From a virus: a DNA stretch of 20,508 nt. Below the pieces are notes generated by a model. It was not told the DNA's origin. It did no database searches and saw only the letters and a program-made list of their open reading frames with translations. The position numbers and the translations under genes are program-made. The stretch lies in IMG/VR virus record IMGVR_UViG_3300027974_000200, positions 1 through 20,508 of that record; one strand, given 5' to 3'. Shown here one piece after another: positions 7,401 through 19,731 of the stretch (positions within the stretch are counted from its first letter, which is position 1; each line of letters opens with the position of its first letter).

Positions 7401-8105
7401 TTATGAGAGCGACAGGTACATGGATGCCATTCCCCTGGCGGTTCCTCCGGTCGACGAGTAAGTGCAGGTTACGTTTTGTGGGGATGAGTTATAAATTTTG
7501 TATCGAAGAACGTGTGAGGTGAATTGAATGACCGACCCGGTTTGCGTGGGAGACATCGTAGAGGCTGATGCGTTACCTCCGCCCTCAATGCTGTAAAAAC
7601 CCAAGGCTATCAATGGCGCTGTGCCGCTAGACGAGGTGATTGTTTGAGCTGAAGGGGTAGCAATAGTTCCCGCGTTTCCGTTTGTTGTTACGCTGCCCGA
7701 AGTAACGGATGTTAAACTTTTGTTGTTTAGCCTAAATACTGAGCACGACCATACGTAATAAGGGCCAGCGGTTGTTGGCGTAAATGTTGATCCAAGATCT
7801 GCCGACGTCAGAATCTTGTAGCCAATGTAAATATTGCCCGCGTCGGCAGCTGCCGTTGCATATTCATTATATGACGCAAGCTGCGTTAGACCAGAGCCCG
7901 CAAAACTCAATGATGGAGGCGTTGCGACAGCGTCCGTTGCTGAGTTATAGTAAACAATAAGAAGGTCTCCAGCCTGTGCGCCACTGGCGGCAGATGGATA
8001 CGTTATTGTTTTTACGTTAACGCCTGTGCTGGCAATAAATGAGATGGAAGAAACATTGTCTGCCTGACGCGACATAACAGCGGATCGGAGAGCCCGTGAA
8101 AGCAT
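7401..8105 (-). CDS. Beta-rich virion protein, probable tail appendage
   Basis: A 234-residue protein. The start is ATG 8105, which overlaps the upstream stop as TAATG and has GGGAG seven bases upstream; an in-frame TTG at 8153 would only extend into the fibre gene. After a short basic N-terminus (MLSRALRSAVMSRQ) the body is almost entirely Ser/Thr/Gly/Ala with regularly spaced aromatic residues (ITYPSAASGAQAGDLLIVYY; GNIYIGYKIL; YYVWSCSVFRLNN). This is typical of a beta-sandwich or jelly-roll. It has no charged helix and no membrane segment. It lies between a fibre and the fibre assembly chaperone, so a tail appendage or receptor-binding role is likely but not proven. Confidence 0.75.
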   Translation of the reverse strand: MLSRALRSAVMSRQADNVSSISFIASTGVNVKTITYPSAASGAQAGDLLIVYYNSATDAVATPPSLSFAGSGLTQLASYNEYATAAADAGNIYIGYKILTSADLGSTFTPTTAGPYYVWSCSVFRLNNKSLTSVTSGSVTTNGNAGTIATPSAQTITSSSGTAPLIALGFYSIEGGGNASASTMSPTQTGSVIQFTSHVLRYKIYNSSPQNVTCTYSSTGGTARGMASMYLSLS

Positions 8106-9244
8106 TATGCAACTCCCACAAATGCGCCGTAGACCTGGGATCCGGTCTTCCAAAGCTCAATAATGCTGACTACTGTGGTCGACAATGTTGGCGCGGATCC
8201 AGCGCCAGCCGAACCAACCCATTTAACGCCGCCAGATCCAAAGCTGGTGTCAGTCCAGGTAATGGCGTTGGCTCCGGCTGTAACCATCAGCGTAACACTC
8301 TGGCCGGCAGCAAAGCTGCTTGCCGTTGGAGTTCGGCTTGCACCAAGAGTCCAGAGCTGAATAGATCCGTTGGCTGGGTTTACGTCAACAGATGCGCCAT
8401 CAGTGATGGTAAAGACGTTCTCTTTAATGTTTCCCGAGAAGGTCCATTGCCCGCTGGCAGCGACGCTGGTTGTTGCGCCAGAAACAGCAGAACCAATAGC
8501 TATTGCAGTTGTCGATCCACTTAGGCCAGCCGTACCAATGTTTATGGTTTTGGTGCTGCCAGATGCTGTTGCTCCAGCCTGAATGTTGGTGGTTTGGCTT
8601 GCAGTAGACAAGCCAATAGCAATTGTTCCAGTATGACCCGTATTGCCAATTGTCAATGTCTGCGCTACCGCGGATGCCTGAATTGTTAGCGATGCCGCTG
8701 AGCTAATAGATGAAAAGATTTGATTGCCGGAAAATGTTTGGTTGCTTTGATTTAGACTTGCTATTGAATACGTGGCGCCGGAAATGCGGTAAAACAAGCC
8801 GCTAGAGGTTCCCCAAACATCCCCCGTAACCGGGCTGGTCGGTGCAGAGCCGACACCAATATTAAAAGGCGCTGCCGTTGTTGTGGATGCCGGAAATATT
8901 AACTGCCCCGTCATCGTGCCGCCAGTAAGCGCCAGCCGCTCAGTCTTTAGGTCATTCAGCATCACCCTTGCAACACGGAGTTCCACGGTATCTCCGGTTG
9001 ACCACGCTCTAGCAGTCGTCCCGTCTTGGGCGCGAGTGACGGTGAATGTGTCCGTGCTTACGGCCGTAACCTTGACAATCTCGATGTTGCTCGAGGCGTC
9101 AGTCAGCGTGACGTAAAAGTAGTCTCCGCCAGAGATTGACGGGAATAGAGCGCCCTTTCCCGTCGCAACGGTCAGGCTTGTGGCGATGTTCGTAATCGAA
9201 GATGCTAGGGTAGCCGATGCGTTGTTTGAATAGAGGACTGGCAT
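8105..9244 (-). CDS. Tail fibre / appendage protein with common N-terminal virion-attachment module
   Basis: A 379-residue fibre-like protein. Its start ATG 9244 overlaps the preceding stop as TAATG, with GAAGG upstream. Residues 1-95 (SITNIATSLTVATGKGALFP; GGDYFYVTLTDASSNIEIVK; TVTRAQDGTTARAW) match a module common at the N-terminus of short phage tail fibres, probably the part bound to the particle. LTGGTMTGQLIFPAS at about 105-120 is a frequent fibre linker motif. The middle consists of short Ser/Thr/Gly/Ile repeats (TINIGTAG, IAIGSAVSG), suggesting a trimeric beta-structured shaft. The C-terminus (WTLGASRTPT ... IIELWKTGSQVYGAFVG) is a compact beta domain also found at fibre tips. A depolymerase is unlikely because no catalytic motif is visible. 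Confidence 0.82.
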   Translation of the reverse strand: MPVLYSNNASATLASSITNIATSLTVATGKGALFPSISGGDYFYVTLTDASSNIEIVKVTAVSTDTFTVTRAQDGTTARAWSTGDTVELRVARVMLNDLKTERLALTGGTMTGQLIFPASTTTAAPFNIGVGSAPTSPVTGDVWGTSSGLFYRISGATYSIASLNQSNQTFSGNQIFSSISSAASLTIQASAVAQTLTIGNTGHTGTIAIGLSTASQTTNIQAGATASGSTKTINIGTAGLSGSTTAIAIGSAVSGATTSVAASGQWTFSGNIKENVFTITDGASVDVNPANGSIQLWTLGASRTPTASSFAAGQSVTLMVTAGANAITWTDTSFGSGGVKWVGSAGAGSAPTLSTTVVSIIELWKTGSQVYGAFVGVA

Positions 9245-10548
9245 TACGCAACCTTCAGAACTTCAACATTGATATATTCGATCTCTGCACCTACGGCAAT
9301 GTCGTTGTAAGAAGCAGACACCTCGATGTCGTTGGCGGCGGCACTTGCCTGCACGTAGCTTGTTGACACGGACGACAAGAGGCCGGATTGAGTGTAGATC
9401 TTTCGCAGGCGCGAACTGGCAACAGCGGCTGAAGCCAACGCGCTCCCGCCAAATCTCTTGGTAATAAAAATCGTTGGGCTGGTTAGCGCGGTAGAAAGCG
9501 CCGAGCCACTAAAAACCAAAACCGCAGAAACCAAGCCTGAGGCCTGAGCGGTTGCATTAATGGAGCCGGCAATGCTTCGGATTATCGATGCGCTTGCGCT
9601 TGCCGAAGATGTTGCACTGATGGAGGCAGCAACACTTCTGAAGGAAATTATTGAAGCCTGAGCGATGCTTGCAACAGCGCTTGCGGACGCGGCAAGCCTT
9701 GCGGTAATGGCAAGCGCCCCCGACCGCGCCACTGATGCCTGAATAGAAGCGGCAATCGACGCCGTCTTCGACATGCTGCCAGAAGCAGACAAGGAAGCGG
9801 AAACGCTGGAAGCTATCCGTAACGCAACTGAGAATGAAGACGACTGAACTGCCGTTGCGGCAACGGATGCCGCTAGTATCTTGCTTGCGGAAAGGCTACC
9901 GGAAGCCGTAACGGCCAACACAGCAAATGCCGAGATGCCCGCCCCACCCGAAAGAGTTGCGGATGTTGTGGCGACCGCGGCTATAGAAGATGCGATACCC
10001 TTTTCTGCTGAAAGGTTCGCGGAAGCCGTGATTGCAAATGCAGCAGAAACCGATAGAGGTTTCTCTGCCGAAAGACTAGATGAGGCAACAAAAGCTGTCG
10101 AGACAGATGTCGACAGATTCTTTTCTGGCGAAAGACTCGCGTCCGCTGTGACCGCTGTAGAAATGGAGGACGAAACCCCCTTGACCACAGACAGACTGAC
10201 TGACGATGTGACAGACAGGGAGACGGAAGATGCAAGCGCCTTCCCTAAGGAGATGTCTGCTGATGCTGTTGCAGCCGCAGATATGCCGGACGAGACTCCT
10301 TTTTGTACTGAGAGCCCGCCGGACGCCGCAAACGCTAAGCTCGCTGATCCGGACAGCTCTATTGGCTGGATAAGTGAAGCAGACGATGATGCAGCGCACG
10401 CAATCGACGCGTCAAAGCTTACCGACTTATCAAGGGACGCGCTGACTTGCGCCGTTGTTGAGACGGAACAAGCCAAGCTCTGTGACGCAACCGCTCCAGA
10501 GCTTGCATTTAGTGCCGCGCTATTAAGCGCAGAACTATTGAGCAGCAT
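9244..10548 (-). CDS. Ala/Ser-rich protein of 18 tandem 20-residue repeats
   Basis: A 434-residue protein of unknown function, starting at ATG 10548 (MLLNSSALNSAALNAS). The N-terminus has three short L-N-(S/A) motifs. Residues 19-378 then divide into 18 consecutive units of exactly 20 residues with no insertion or deletion. The consensus is roughly L-S-x-x-K-x-(I/V/L)-A-S-S-(I/V)-S-A-x-x-(T/V)-A-S-A-x, for example LSAEKGIASSIAAVATTSAT. The last 56 residues form a different cap (ANDIEVSASYNDIAVGAEIE). There is no signal peptide or Cys pattern. Alternating hydrophobic and small residues suggest two short beta strands per unit and a solenoid or triple beta-helix shaft. It lies among fibre genes with TAATG coupling to the next, so a virion appendage is likely. 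Confidence 0.82.
   Translation of the reverse strand: MLLNSSALNSAALNASSGAVASQSLACSVSTTAQVSASLDKSVSFDASIACAASSSASLIQPIELSGSASLAFAASGGLSVQKGVSSGISAAATASADISLGKALASSVSLSVTSSVSLSVVKGVSSSISTAVTADASLSPEKNLSTSVSTAFVASSSLSAEKPLSVSAAFAITASANLSAEKGIASSIAAVATTSATLSGGAGISAFAVLAVTASGSLSASKILAASVAATAVQSSSFSVALRIASSVSASLSASGSMSKTASIAASIQASVARSGALAITARLAASASAVASIAQASIISFRSVAASISATSSASASASIIRSIAGSINATAQASGLVSAVLVFSGSALSTALTSPTIFITKRFGGSALASAAVASSRLRKIYTQSGLLSSVSTSYVQASAAANDIEVSASYNDIAVGAEIEYINVEVLKVA
9415..10494 (-). repeat. Eighteen in-frame 60-bp units encoding 20-residue repeats
   Basis: Protein-level repeats in the Ala/Ser-rich gene: 18 units of exactly 60 bases. Unit boundaries at residues 19, 39, 59, 79 and so on to 359 keep a hydrophobic residue first and Ser near position 2. 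The DNA of neighbouring units has diverged clearly, so the repeats are old and kept by selection on the protein rather than by recent slippage. The first and last units are the most degenerate. Confidence 0.8.
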
Positions 10549-10561
10549 CCCTTACCCGCTT

Positions 10562-10996
10562 TTACGCAAAGGTGACAGACAGAGAGCCAGCCGGGAACGT
10601 AACGGTATCGGACTGGTTGACCGTTTTGCTGATGGTCAGCGCACCCCAGAACAACAGGTTGCCGGCAGAGGCCGCATCAAAGATGCCAAAGTGCGTAACC
10701 GTTCCCCAGGTGGCGGACGGAGTCGCAAACGTAATGGCGTTGTTGTTTGAAGTCGAGCCACCTGTGCCGCTCGATGCGGTCGTCGAGCCGGAAGACTGAG
10801 TGCCAGCCCAGTTGGCCAAAGACGAAGAGACAGATGTGCGAGCATAGCTGCCGCCACTGACTTCCGTGCCGCCGCCGGAGTCAGACGGGGCAGCAGTGAA
10901 CAGACCGACGTACAGGGTGGTAGTCGTGGGAGCGGCTTGACCTCGGAAGAGCTGGTCAACCAGCTTGTTCTCAAGGTAATCGGACATTGCGGACAT
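10562..10996 (-). CDS. Small tail-fibre-family virion protein
   Basis: A 144-residue protein starting at ATG 10996 with AAGAGGT eight bases upstream; a second ATG three codons in has no site of its own. Residues 5-15 form a helix (SDYLENKLVDQLF), then TTLYVGLFTAAPSDSGGGTE and SGGSYART. This is the conserved core of a widespread family of small phage proteins often labelled tail fibre protein. A Gly/Ser/Thr-rich segment and a closing beta region (THFGIFDAASAGNLLFWGAL) follow. Such proteins are usually structural, but their exact place in the particle is not fixed. It lies between the BppU-N-like gene and the repeat protein gene. Confidence 0.8.
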   Translation of the reverse strand: MSAMSDYLENKLVDQLFRGQAAPTTTTLYVGLFTAAPSDSGGGTEVSGGSYARTSVSSSLANWAGTQSSGSTTASSGTGGSTSNNNAITFATPSATWGTVTHFGIFDAASAGNLLFWGALTISKTVNQSDTVTFPAGSLSVTFA

Positions 10997-11008
10997 GGTA
11001 AATACCTC

Positions 11009-11344
11009 TTAGTTAAATTGAGAGCGGATGCTGAACTTAAGGACTTCGAAGACCGTTTGCTTCTGGCCTTCGAAGTCGATTTCAACCTCACCCTCATAAG
11101 CGCCTGGATCTACATCTAGAACGCCATTAGGGAAGTTGAACCGGACCACCCCTGCCGTGCCACCGCTAACCTTCTCGCACAAGATCGTCGAAAGAACGGT
11201 GTCACTTCCGGTGGCCCGGAAGTAGACTCGCACAATGACGTCTGGGTCACTTAGGTCGATGGAAGACCCCGTATTGGGATCGGTTAGGGTGAGACGGATA
11301 TAAGGTAGGTTGTCGCCCTGAACGAGCTTGATCTTTTCTGACAT
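11009..11344 (-). CDS. BppU N-terminal-domain-like tail protein
   Basis: A 111-residue protein made of one beta-sandwich-like domain. The start (KIKLVQGDNLPYIRLTLTDP), the middle (VIVRVYFRATGSDTVLSTI) and the end (GAYEGEVEIDFEGQKQTVFE then VLKFSIR) follow the pattern of the N-terminal domain of baseplate upper proteins (BppU_N-type). In lactococcal phages that domain attaches receptor-binding proteins to the tail. Here it stands alone. The start ATG 11344 overlaps the preceding stop as TGATG and has a strong GGAGG site. It may be an adaptor between the tail and the fibres encoded just downstream. Confidence 0.78.
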   Translation of the reverse strand: MSEKIKLVQGDNLPYIRLTLTDPNTGSSIDLSDPDVIVRVYFRATGSDTVLSTILCEKVSGGTAGVVRFNFPNGVLDVDPGAYEGEVEIDFEGQKQTVFEVLKFSIRSQFN

Positions 11345-11994
11345 CAGATCCTCCGCATCTGGACGGCAAGGCTGCCGCGAACATTGCCGTGAAGAGCGCG
11401 ACTGCGGGCGACGTTTACGCCTACGTCAAACAATCCCTTCTCCACTGCGGCCATCTGCGCGTTGCTGTATGGCTTGCCGGCCGACATCATCAGTCGGTAC
11501 AGGGCGCCGTGAGCAATGGTCTCCGCGTAGTCCTCAAAAACCACATCGTCAATCTCGCTGCTCGCCCTGGTTGGTTTAATGGCTACGCGCAGAGTCAGCC
11601 CGTTCGCATATTTCTTATCCGGTAATGGCCACACGCTGATTGAGCGAGGCTCTTTCTGGAGGTAGTACTGAGGAGTGCTGGCCTGCGATTCGTACGAACT
11701 GAACAGCCTGTTGTAAGTAGACGCATCCCGCACGAAGTCTGGGGCAACAGCATTCAGCTTGTTGTTCTCAAGCCATGCCTGTTGCACTTTTACTACGACG
11801 TAGCCCTTCGGGGGATCAAGGTCGTAGTCAACCAGATTCTGGATGATCGTAATGGGATCGTGATCCACGACAAGAGCAAGGCTCTTTTCGCAGAACTCAA
11901 TGCATGAATTTCTTATTGCCTGAGTGACGATCAGCTCATTGGCCCCAGGCACCTCAGGGAGAATGTATGGGAAGAAGTCTTCGTAAGCGGCCAT
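11344..11994 (-). CDS. Head-tail adaptor / tail-tube-A-like protein
   Basis: A 216-residue protein with ATG 11994 overlapping the previous stop as TAATG, GGAGGT nine bases upstream. The N-terminus (AYEDFFPYILPEVPGANELI, then TQAIRNSCIEFCEKS) is the helical start typical of phage adaptor or tail tubular A-type proteins (T7 gp11 kind), which join the portal to the tail. A beta-rich core follows (ISVWPLPDKKYANGLTLRVA). A helical C-terminus (ETIAHGALYRLMMSAGKPYS) ends in a basic tail. The next gene upstream is of the same general type, so one may contact the portal and the other the nozzle. The specific division of labour is inferred. Confidence 0.75.
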   Translation of the reverse strand: MAAYEDFFPYILPEVPGANELIVTQAIRNSCIEFCEKSLALVVDHDPITIIQNLVDYDLDPPKGYVVVKVQQAWLENNKLNAVAPDFVRDASTYNRLFSSYESQASTPQYYLQKEPRSISVWPLPDKKYANGLTLRVAIKPTRASSEIDDVVFEDYAETIAHGALYRLMMSAGKPYSNAQMAAVEKGLFDVGVNVARSRALHGNVRGSLAVQMRRI

Positions 11995-12689
11995 TAAGCA
12001 ACACCTCCAAGCTGAGCCGCAGCGCCGTTGGGATCTCCACCTTTGTTCGATACCTTAGGCCCAAAGGCAATGTCCTTCTGGAGCTTGATGCCAAGGACGG
12101 ATGCGAACAGCGACAGGTAAGAGCTTGCGAGCTGCGCGTTAGCTGCGAAGTCCGTCTCCTTTGAGTAGCAGCGGAACAGCAGGTAGTTGATCAGCGCCTC
12201 AAAGTACGAGTCCTGAACGGTCAGGTCGTCGGTCGTGGCGGAGACGGCGGACGGGTACTTTGAGTAGACGGTCTCAACTTTGACGCCGCTGCTGACGGGC
12301 GGATACACGAAGAACTGCCCTGGGATGCGTTCGTCGTAGGTGAAGTGCTTGACCGCCGACTGATTGGTGGCGGTGTGCCAGTTCGGATCAAACCGATCCA
12401 GCGTGTCTCGGGCCGTGATGGTGATGGCTCGACCGGGAGTTGTTCCGTCAGACGCCATATTTCGCACCACATCAAGCAAACGAAATCCGCCAGTGGGGAT
12501 GCTCTGCTTGCTTCCGGCAGACAGGGTTTGAACTGTGGATGCGGAGCAGGAGTCGGGGCGATAGACAGCAACGAGGCGCTGGGCGTCGTTGATGTAGTCA
12601 ATCATCTCCGCGTTCGACCAGCGGTAGCTTGTCGCATCGGAATCGAGCAGGATGTTCCGTGCGCGAGAGATAACGTCGGAAACCTTCAT
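11994..12689 (-). CDS. Adaptor / tail tubular protein, DUF6682-like
   Basis: A 231-residue protein starting at ATG 12689, overlapping the preceding stop as ATGA. The N-terminal helices (VSDVISRARNILLDSDATSY, then RWSNAEMIDYINDAQRLVAV) match what I recall of DUF6682, a family of phage head-tail joining or tail tube proteins. A beta-rich middle (GGFRLLDVVRNM; AITITARDTLDRFDPNW; PGQFFVYPPVSSGVKVETVY) and late helices (YFEALINYLLFRCYSKETDF) complete the fold expected of this type. The C-terminal 30 residues are Gly/Ala-rich and probably flexible. There is no clear ribosome site, consistent with translation coupled to the 74-residue gene. Confidence 0.77.
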   Translation of the reverse strand: MKVSDVISRARNILLDSDATSYRWSNAEMIDYINDAQRLVAVYRPDSCSASTVQTLSAGSKQSIPTGGFRLLDVVRNMASDGTTPGRAITITARDTLDRFDPNWHTATNQSAVKHFTYDERIPGQFFVYPPVSSGVKVETVYSKYPSAVSATTDDLTVQDSYFEALINYLLFRCYSKETDFAANAQLASSYLSLFASVLGIKLQKDIAFGPKVSNKGGDPNGAAAQLGGVA

Positions 12690-19527: not shown

Positions 19528-19556
19528 CTTATACGTATAACCGTACTATGGGATAA
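19528..19556 (-). promoter_or_regulatory. Possible leftward promoter overlapping dyad repeats
   Basis: On the minus strand, TATAAG (19533-19528) is a good -10 match, with a 17-base spacer to a poor -35 (TTATCC, 19556-19551). The -35 and spacer lie inside the 16-base direct repeats, so a factor binding them could block or activate it. AT-rich DNA gives many chance matches, so confidence is low. Confidence 0.28.
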
Positions 19557-19731
19557 CCGTACTATGGGATACCGTCTTGTATATATCCAAAACAATAACT
19601 ATCCATAAACAATATCCAATACTTATACAAAGAATATCTATACCTTATCCAAAACTAATAAATATCCTAAGGTATATCTTATTCTTAGTATAACCGTAAT
19701 ACGGATATACCGTAGTACGGTTATCCGTAGA
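19537..19731. repeat. Two clusters of the dyad ACCGTA-N-TACGGT (iteron- or operator-like)
   Basis: Four copies of a 13-base dyad sit at 19540-19552 and 19556-19568 (ACCGTACTATGGG twice), 19693-19705 (ACCGTAATACGGA) and 19709-19721 (ACCGTAGTACGGT, perfect). In both pairs the copies are exactly 16 bases apart. Each pair is followed about 15 bases later by a degenerate half-site (ACCGTC at 19571, TCCGTA at 19724). The pairs flank the AT-rich block. This is what binding sites for a dimeric DNA-binding protein look like. Confidence 0.75.
19584..19679. repeat. AT-rich block with repeated TATCC pentamers
   Basis: TATCC or one-base variants start at 19584, 19600, 19613, 19624, 19635, 19646, 19663 and 19675, spaced 11-17 bases apart, several exactly 11 (one helical turn). 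Two copies share TATCCAAAAC. The block is much richer in A and T than its surroundings, as expected of an origin unwinding element or a bendable control site. Confidence 0.5.

Follow-up and report, generated by a model that had tools for sequence, protein, structure and literature searches.

What is a protein made largely of Ala/Ser-rich 20-residue repeats, encoded between a collar-type gene and a tail fibre gene of a podophage, built to do? The protein in question, P0001, is encoded in a 20.5-kb virus stretch, IMG/VR record IMGVR_UViG_3300027974_000200, the full 20,508 nucleotides of which are called the window throughout and whose genes lie mostly on the minus strand. We show that P0001 belongs to a real, selected and widespread 20-residue repeat family encoded near homologues of gp80 of podophage GP4. 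Guided by a structure model obtained with AlphaFold2 (AF2), we consider P0001 to be probably a beta-solenoid virion stalk of the collar/tail-fibre assembly, the reach of which would be set by the number of its coils.

A diverged repeat in a gene under purifying selection

The gene and its parts are as follows.

9244..10548, minus strand: gene of the Ala/Ser 20-residue repeat protein P0001, an open reading frame (ORF) of 434 residues with the repeat and a ratio of nonsynonymous to synonymous divergence (dN/dS) of 0.16 against the relative L003
10495..10548, minus strand: N-terminal segment covering residues 1-18, a putative anchor or cap in which L-N occurs three times, 5 residues apart; L013, L014, L017 and L019 start similarly
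10435..10494, minus strand: first, poorly fitting unit, residues 19-38, with a low profile score and another best phase
9418..10434, minus strand: main repeat array spanning residues 39-377, which the lag-20 signal and the profile resolve into about 17 coils of 20 residues; the AF2 model covers residues 79-258
9661..9663, minus strand: approximate place of a single extra residue (about residue 296) in the profile, the phase being +1 afterwards
9247..9417, minus strand: C-terminal segment, residues 378-434, not in the 20-residue pattern and ending ...YINVEVLKVA; L013, L014 and L019 end ...LRVA, ...FREAA and ...LRAA

Residues 19-378 split into 18 blocks of 20, and identity at lag 20 lies far above that of shuffled sequences (z 10.8 to 11.9 by run; z 9.6 at lag 40), with most even lags above expectation and most odd ones below, which is a mark of alternating strands. 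Against a family profile built without L001-L003, the 13 blocks at 39-298 share one phase, relative to which each of the four at 299-378 is displaced by one residue; permitting one inserted residue near 296 raised the profile score from 100 to 130, and block 19-38 fits poorly and in a different phase. The array consists of 17 clear units and one extra residue, plus one doubtful first unit. A preliminary description of the window had counted 18 exact units free of insertions and deletions, of which the division into blocks and the period (lag-20 z of about 11) stand, while the exactness yields to the extra residue and the weak first unit. Its statement that the DNA had diverged while unit length was kept is borne out: Tandem Repeats Finder returned no 60-base array in the P0001 gene, only one row with a 24-base period (10187-10232), and the DNA of the units shares a mean of 36% of bases (0.35/0.48/0.26 by codon position). 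Such low identity together with third positions near random indicates that the units are old and constrained at the protein level.

The same constraint is seen between genes. Compared with L003, whose protein is 91% identical, differences number 27/12/92 at codon positions 1/2/3 (dN 0.046, dS 0.295), showing that the gene is under purifying selection and that the frame is coding. The start codon lies 13 bases past the stop of the gp80 homologue, with a stretch rich in purines ahead of it, and the stop codon shares the letters TAATG with the start of the downstream fibre gene. We considered the overlapping antisense ORF at 9881-10750 (plus strand, 289 residues) as the true frame and rejected it, since the codon-position differences favour the minus-strand frame. 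Antisense frames over P0001 also carry a lag-20 signal, reaching z 9.9, which can mislead the choice of frame.

Part of these data would suit a linker of low complexity that is largely disordered, or a silk-like aggregate-former, with tandem duplication as the sole source of its 20-residue pattern: neighbouring units are more alike (0.36) than non-adjacent pairs (0.23), Ala, Gly, Ser and Thr make up 59% of P0001 (with 22 Gly, 6 Asp and 24 Thr among 434 residues), and AF2 models the single sequence poorly. We regard this explanation as quite improbable, because unit length is kept despite sequence drift, purifying selection combined with near-random third positions speaks for an old protein-level constraint, and one face of the family units, described below, is kept poor in charge.

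Two-faced units and the predicted fold

Aligned by column, 384 family units carry charge in 0-2% of cases in columns 1, 7, 9, 11, 13, 15, 17 and 19, in 3-23% in the even columns and in 37% in the turn column 5. Leu, Ile, Val, Phe or Met occupies column 7 in 89% and column 1 in 74% of units, Gly occupies columns 9 (53%) and 19 (42%), ten residues apart, and Pro is found at column 6 in 26%. P0001 by itself shows the same parity (odd-minus-even hydropathy, z 5.0), so that both the units and the protein display the in/out alternation around an uncharged core that is characteristic of a beta-solenoid. Within residues 79-238 of P0001, Lys stands at column 5 in seven of eight successive units and Glu at column 4 in three of these, residues which would form a charged ladder along one edge if the protein were a solenoid.

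AF2, run on residues 79-258 with an alignment of 30 non-overlapping fragments (A5, which replaced A4, an alignment of overlapping fragments with 1074 columns), yielded a regular coil with a mean predicted local distance difference test score (pLDDT) of 74.1 and a predicted template modelling score of 0.63. The model has two strands and a bridge per 20 residues, the strands lying near columns 11-15 and 18-3 and the bridge at column 7. Its structural alignments gave Z 14.7 at a root-mean-square deviation (rmsd) of 2.3 for 3lyc, Z 13.1 at 2.7 for 5nxk, Z 12.8 at 3.2 for 7muq_AM and Z 12.3 at 3.1 for 9rkv_N, where, for repeats, a Z below about 13 may reflect a common arrangement only. All four are right-handed beta-solenoids, 9rkv_N being a tail fibre of phage 7-7-1. 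LpxD, GlmU and OatWY, which are left-handed helices, reach high Z to the model, at an rmsd near 11, and we read this as opposite handedness; we take the model as right-handed, with AF2 bias as the main doubt. The best BFVD rows for the model (E 0.02, probability 1.00) are uncharacterised phage proteins.

Several observations weigh against a solenoid. The full-length single sequence gave a poor AF2 model (pLDDT 38.2); the five models of the alignment-based run scored 74, 71, 67, 44 and 30; the rows of A5 had been selected for regular repeats; and Foldseek searches of PDB and BFVD with the model found nothing at E <= 0.001. AF2 is moreover reported, in PMC11795689, to over-predict beta-solenoids for perfect or near-perfect repeats, and the artefactual solenoids described there show stacked internal charges as a fault, whereas the P0001 family keeps charge off the inner (odd) face. 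The regular solenoid put forward in the preliminary description is supported in part: relatives keep the period of 20 and the two-faced pattern, and AF2 returns a coil with 30 rows, set against a poor single-sequence model and a biased predictor.

Phage fibre shafts are often trimers, and an intertwined homotrimeric shaft, triple beta-spiral-like or a triple beta-helix, instead of a one-chain solenoid has to be weighed here, since alternating two-faced strands suit such shafts too and the gene next to that of P0001 has a GP4 relative represented by 18 chains in PDB 8jov. Triple beta-spiral shafts of the adenovirus type have a 15-residue repeat; P0001, in contrast, has a period of 20, and its lag-15 z is -2.8 in the run that gave z 10.8 at lag 20. 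AF2 closes the coil within one chain, though a trimer was no option there. PMC12796354 describes the tail fibre of Agrobacterium phage 7-7-1, which aligns to the model, as trimeric. On balance we judge an intertwined trimer rather unlikely.

In the favoured one-chain solenoid, each 20-residue unit would form one turn, with the odd positions (Leu1, Leu7, Gly/Ala9, Ala/Ile11, Ala13, Ala15, Ala17 and Ala/Gly19) facing inward to form a narrow core packed with small side chains, the even positions (Ser, Thr and others) pointing outward and positions 4-6 forming the main turn. Beta-solenoids rise by 0.48 nm per turn, so that a rod with about 17-18 turns would be roughly 8-9 nm long.

P0001 matched no Pfam and no PHROG family, so the earlier statement that its family cannot be named holds for this protein in these two collections; it also matched no sequence in the PDB. 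The fold class proposed here is already known. A PDB profile search gave eight weak matches, all of which were set aside, those displayed as alignments being low-complexity matches, and tblastn of P0001 in annotated phages found nothing, a result of little weight because BLAST masks low complexity. A literature search limited to Creative Commons-licensed papers in PubMed Central (PMC) retrieved no paper on such a repeat family. P0001 does not match the filamentous haemagglutinin repeat PF05594, for which one of 30 alignment members scored 0.0016, nor, unlike its upstream neighbour, the GP4 gp80 family PF23140. RTX beta-rolls have a 9-residue Gly/Asp-rich calcium motif; the 22 Gly and 6 Asp of P0001 and its lack of a Pfam match give no such picture. 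The suggested antifreeze-like role found no support either, as P0001 has 24 Thr in 434 residues and no array column is mostly Thr.

The repeat family and its gene neighbourhood

How regular and how widespread the repeat is was assessed in loci all collected through gp80, so that the counts speak for its surroundings only. Two IMG/VR scans with gp80 (the best 80 of over 580 relatives each) and some further loci gave 122 distinct loci, after exclusion of the window itself (L004) and merging of loci with identical gp80 DNA; they take in L002/L001, L003, seven loci of annotated phages (L005-L010, L093) and otherwise IMG/VR contigs. Loci with fewer than 1500 bases downstream were omitted from position counts, namely 20 of the 122 and 10 of 71 in a set from bacterial genomes. 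Of the 102 remaining loci, which are mostly from IMG/VR and include two near-identical relatives of the window, 46 have a 20-periodic ORF that starts no more than 120 bases past gp80, and 70 have one anywhere in the stretch covered. The corresponding counts for the bacterial genomes are 16 and 38 of 61 loci, with Proteobacteria, Nitrospira, Armatimonadota, Planctomycetota and Verrucomicrobia among the record titles and many metagenome-assembled genomes. In phage ctXG6705 a member lies two genes, and in Venkman one gene, before the gene of the stabilization protein.

The loci hold 2408 distinct ORFs, although overlapping loci may contribute the same protein in two lengths. Of these ORFs 152 show a period at z > 5, with 100 of them peaking at lag 20 or 40, compared with two periodic sequences among shuffled copies. 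By profile, with L001-L003 and proteins scoring below 40 left out, 444 spacings between successive positions 9 were counted, of which 371 measure exactly 20 and 25 measure 21. These counts, and the set of family units picked by the same profile, lean towards the pattern since the profile was seeded from P0001 and favours 20, which makes the lag count the fairer test. Both the 100 of 152 periodic ORFs and the P0001 array with its one extra residue show the near-constant unit length expected of a beta-solenoid. In the homologue L014, which has 56 units, all 55 successive spacings are exactly 20. L017 and L019 share 69% identity, and a single 150-residue block within the array sets them apart, as would be left if several coils had been gained or lost together; it is in this manner that reach may have been altered in evolution.

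Three of 11 further annotated phages have a clear 20-periodic ORF near gp80. The cultured phage MEP401 has a clear member in the slot after gp80, namely gp59 (z 10); the proteins encoded in this slot are weakly or not 20-periodic in phiM5 (phiM5_18, lag-20 z 3.2), Itty13 (3.0), CRP-4 (1.9) and CRP-5 (2.3), the latter two having a lag-8 period; the top lag of gp54 of Burkholderia phage JC1 is 22, with 20 second. In L062, L063, L043, L068 and L072, the fibre gene that follows the 20-residue repeat gene has a strong period of 17 or 34 residues (z 19.7 to 22.3), which places repeats of two lengths next to each other.

Some relatives are modular. Laminin_G_3 was found in L015, L031, L173 and L192 and the Ig-like domain He_PIG in L053 among 20 whole repeat proteins scanned, always N-terminal to the array; P0001 and the nine slot proteins that were scanned showed no additional domain above the cut-off. 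In relatives of the former kind the array would act as a display spacer; in this phage P0001 would be a plain stalk or a surface decoration. Matches to small PHROG families are phrog_31951 (unknown function) in L054 and phrog_6977 (minor tail protein) at the C-termini of MEP401 and CRP-5. An N-terminal motif of a hydrophobic residue followed by N at a spacing of five occurs in nine of 118 distinct repeat proteins, including the window's two relatives as well as L013, L014, L017 and L019, so the end cap read into the L-N triplet is plausible for a subgroup. By eye, many members end in aromatic/Arg-containing repeats of about 10 residues, half a unit, Trp-containing ones being seen in L011:3812-4588, L048:8020-8910, L070:872-1720 and others, and several share similar last residues (LRQG, NEAA, LRAA, LKVA).

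The genes around P0001 were identified by searching ten window ORFs against Pfam and PHROG families.

10562..10996, minus strand: upstream neighbour, homologue of podophage GP4 gp80 (PF23140; Pfam 3.8e-46; PDB 8jou_a, ten chains, 2.3e-18)
8105..9244, minus strand: downstream neighbour, tail fibre protein, residues 3-101 of which match the fibre chain of PDB 8jov (18 chains)
11344-11994 and 11994-12689, minus strand: two adaptor/head-completion genes upstream of the gp80 homologue (PF24175 and PHROG matches)

Terminase, portal, scaffold and capsid genes are placed beyond 12.9 kb on their appearance and gene order alone. Collar and fibre structures of podophage GP4 (PDB 8jou and 8jov) were reportedly described by Zheng et al. 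in 2023. JC1 has the order gp53 (gp80 homologue), gp54 (slot protein), gp55 (92 residues) and tail fibre, and its gp55 matches another chain of 8jou than the gp80 homologue does. The gp80 homologue upstream, the GP4-type fibre downstream and the order in JC1 place the slot among collar and fibre genes, confirming the location among fibre genes noted before. PMC10925440 gives a 15:12 collar mismatch for phage DEV, like that of GP4. In L160 (Sporosarcina phage Lietuvens) and L161 (Psychrobacillus phage PVJ1), which have tape-measure genes, the gp80 homologues come right after baseplate J genes, and from this placement the gp80 fold may serve more generally as a domain for attaching fibres.

Elsewhere in the window, the TTG start of the ORF at 7401-8153 (8095-8160, minus strand) is probably too early, an in-frame ATG lying 48 bases on in a TAATG overlap with the previous stop. 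Short tandem and inverted repeats (AACCGTACTATGGG, ACCGTAATACGG) at 19537-19729, at the upstream end of the gene block, are possibly a replication or regulatory site.

Proposed virion role and comparison with known systems

Virion evidence from distant counterparts is mixed. BcepIL02 gp56, a Burkholderia phage slot protein (lag-20 z 7.8), and BcepMigl gp57 (lag-20 z 4.3) are annotated as virion-associated, and the latter matches phrog_19041, filed as a virion structural protein. The record of phiM5_18 carries no note of detection, which its neighbours have. JC1 gp54 is absent from the virion mass-spectrometry table in PMC9144972, which lists the flanking gp53 and gp55. The data from JC1 and phiM5 would agree with an assembly aid that serves the neighbouring fibre, e.g. 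as chaperone or ruler, and is gone before the virion is completed. We deem this very unlikely given the annotation of BcepIL02 gp56 in the same slot and the filing of phrog_19041, and given that the lectin-like domain fusions of some relatives point to an exposed final product.

For the virion stalk, which we continue to prefer, either the N-terminal LN segment or the C-terminal segment may dock it to the gp80 collar or to the neighbouring fibre. More broadly, and as a tentative proposal, P0001 and its relatives could form an unnamed, widespread family of collar appendages, i.e. one-chain Ala/Ser beta-solenoid rods with a 20-residue coil and few to nearly sixty coils, which vary by in-phase gain and loss and act as interchangeable stalks with or without lectin-like heads near gp80. 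If so, many short-tailed phages would share a length-adjustable stalk near the neck, which escapes annotation because low-complexity filters and profile libraries miss it, and a group of genes now annotated as hypothetical or serine-rich adhesin would be accounted for. Such a stalk would be a simple protein whose coils, counted from sequence, can be compared with the measured length of the rod, and it would offer a natural way to check the beta-solenoid models that AF2 makes of diverged repeats.

Among known systems, podophage GP4 (8jou, 8jov) is closest in gene context, as both genes flanking the P0001 gene are homologous to its chains, whereas P0001 itself matches no PDB chain. The phrog_19041 proteins of Bcep22-like Burkholderia phages (BcepIL02 gp56, BcepMigl gp57) share the slot after the gp80 homologue and the lag-20 signal; they differ in having degenerate units richer in Gly and Arg, and the phrog_19041 profile matches BcepMigl gp57 and the Itty13 slot protein but not P0001. 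JC1 gp54 differs by its lag-22 peak. The 7-7-1 tail fibre gp015 (9rkv) is, according to PMC12796354, beta-helical at residues 177-453, with an N-terminal baseplate anchor and C-terminal jelly-roll domains. These domains and its trimeric state set it apart from the one-chain coil proposed for P0001, which is without a sequence match in the PDB; it resembles P0001 as a phage fibre whose beta-helical middle lies in the range aligning to the P0001 model. The putative pectinase 3lyc, the L. reuteri SRRP 5nxk and the Legionella Dot/Icm chain 7muq_AM are only 5-11% identical to P0001, whose coils have 20 residues and a core mostly of Ala, Gly and Leu and are known from prediction; the model nevertheless aligns with them at an rmsd of 2.3-3.2 over 161-174 residues, sharing a short regular coil and two-faced strands.

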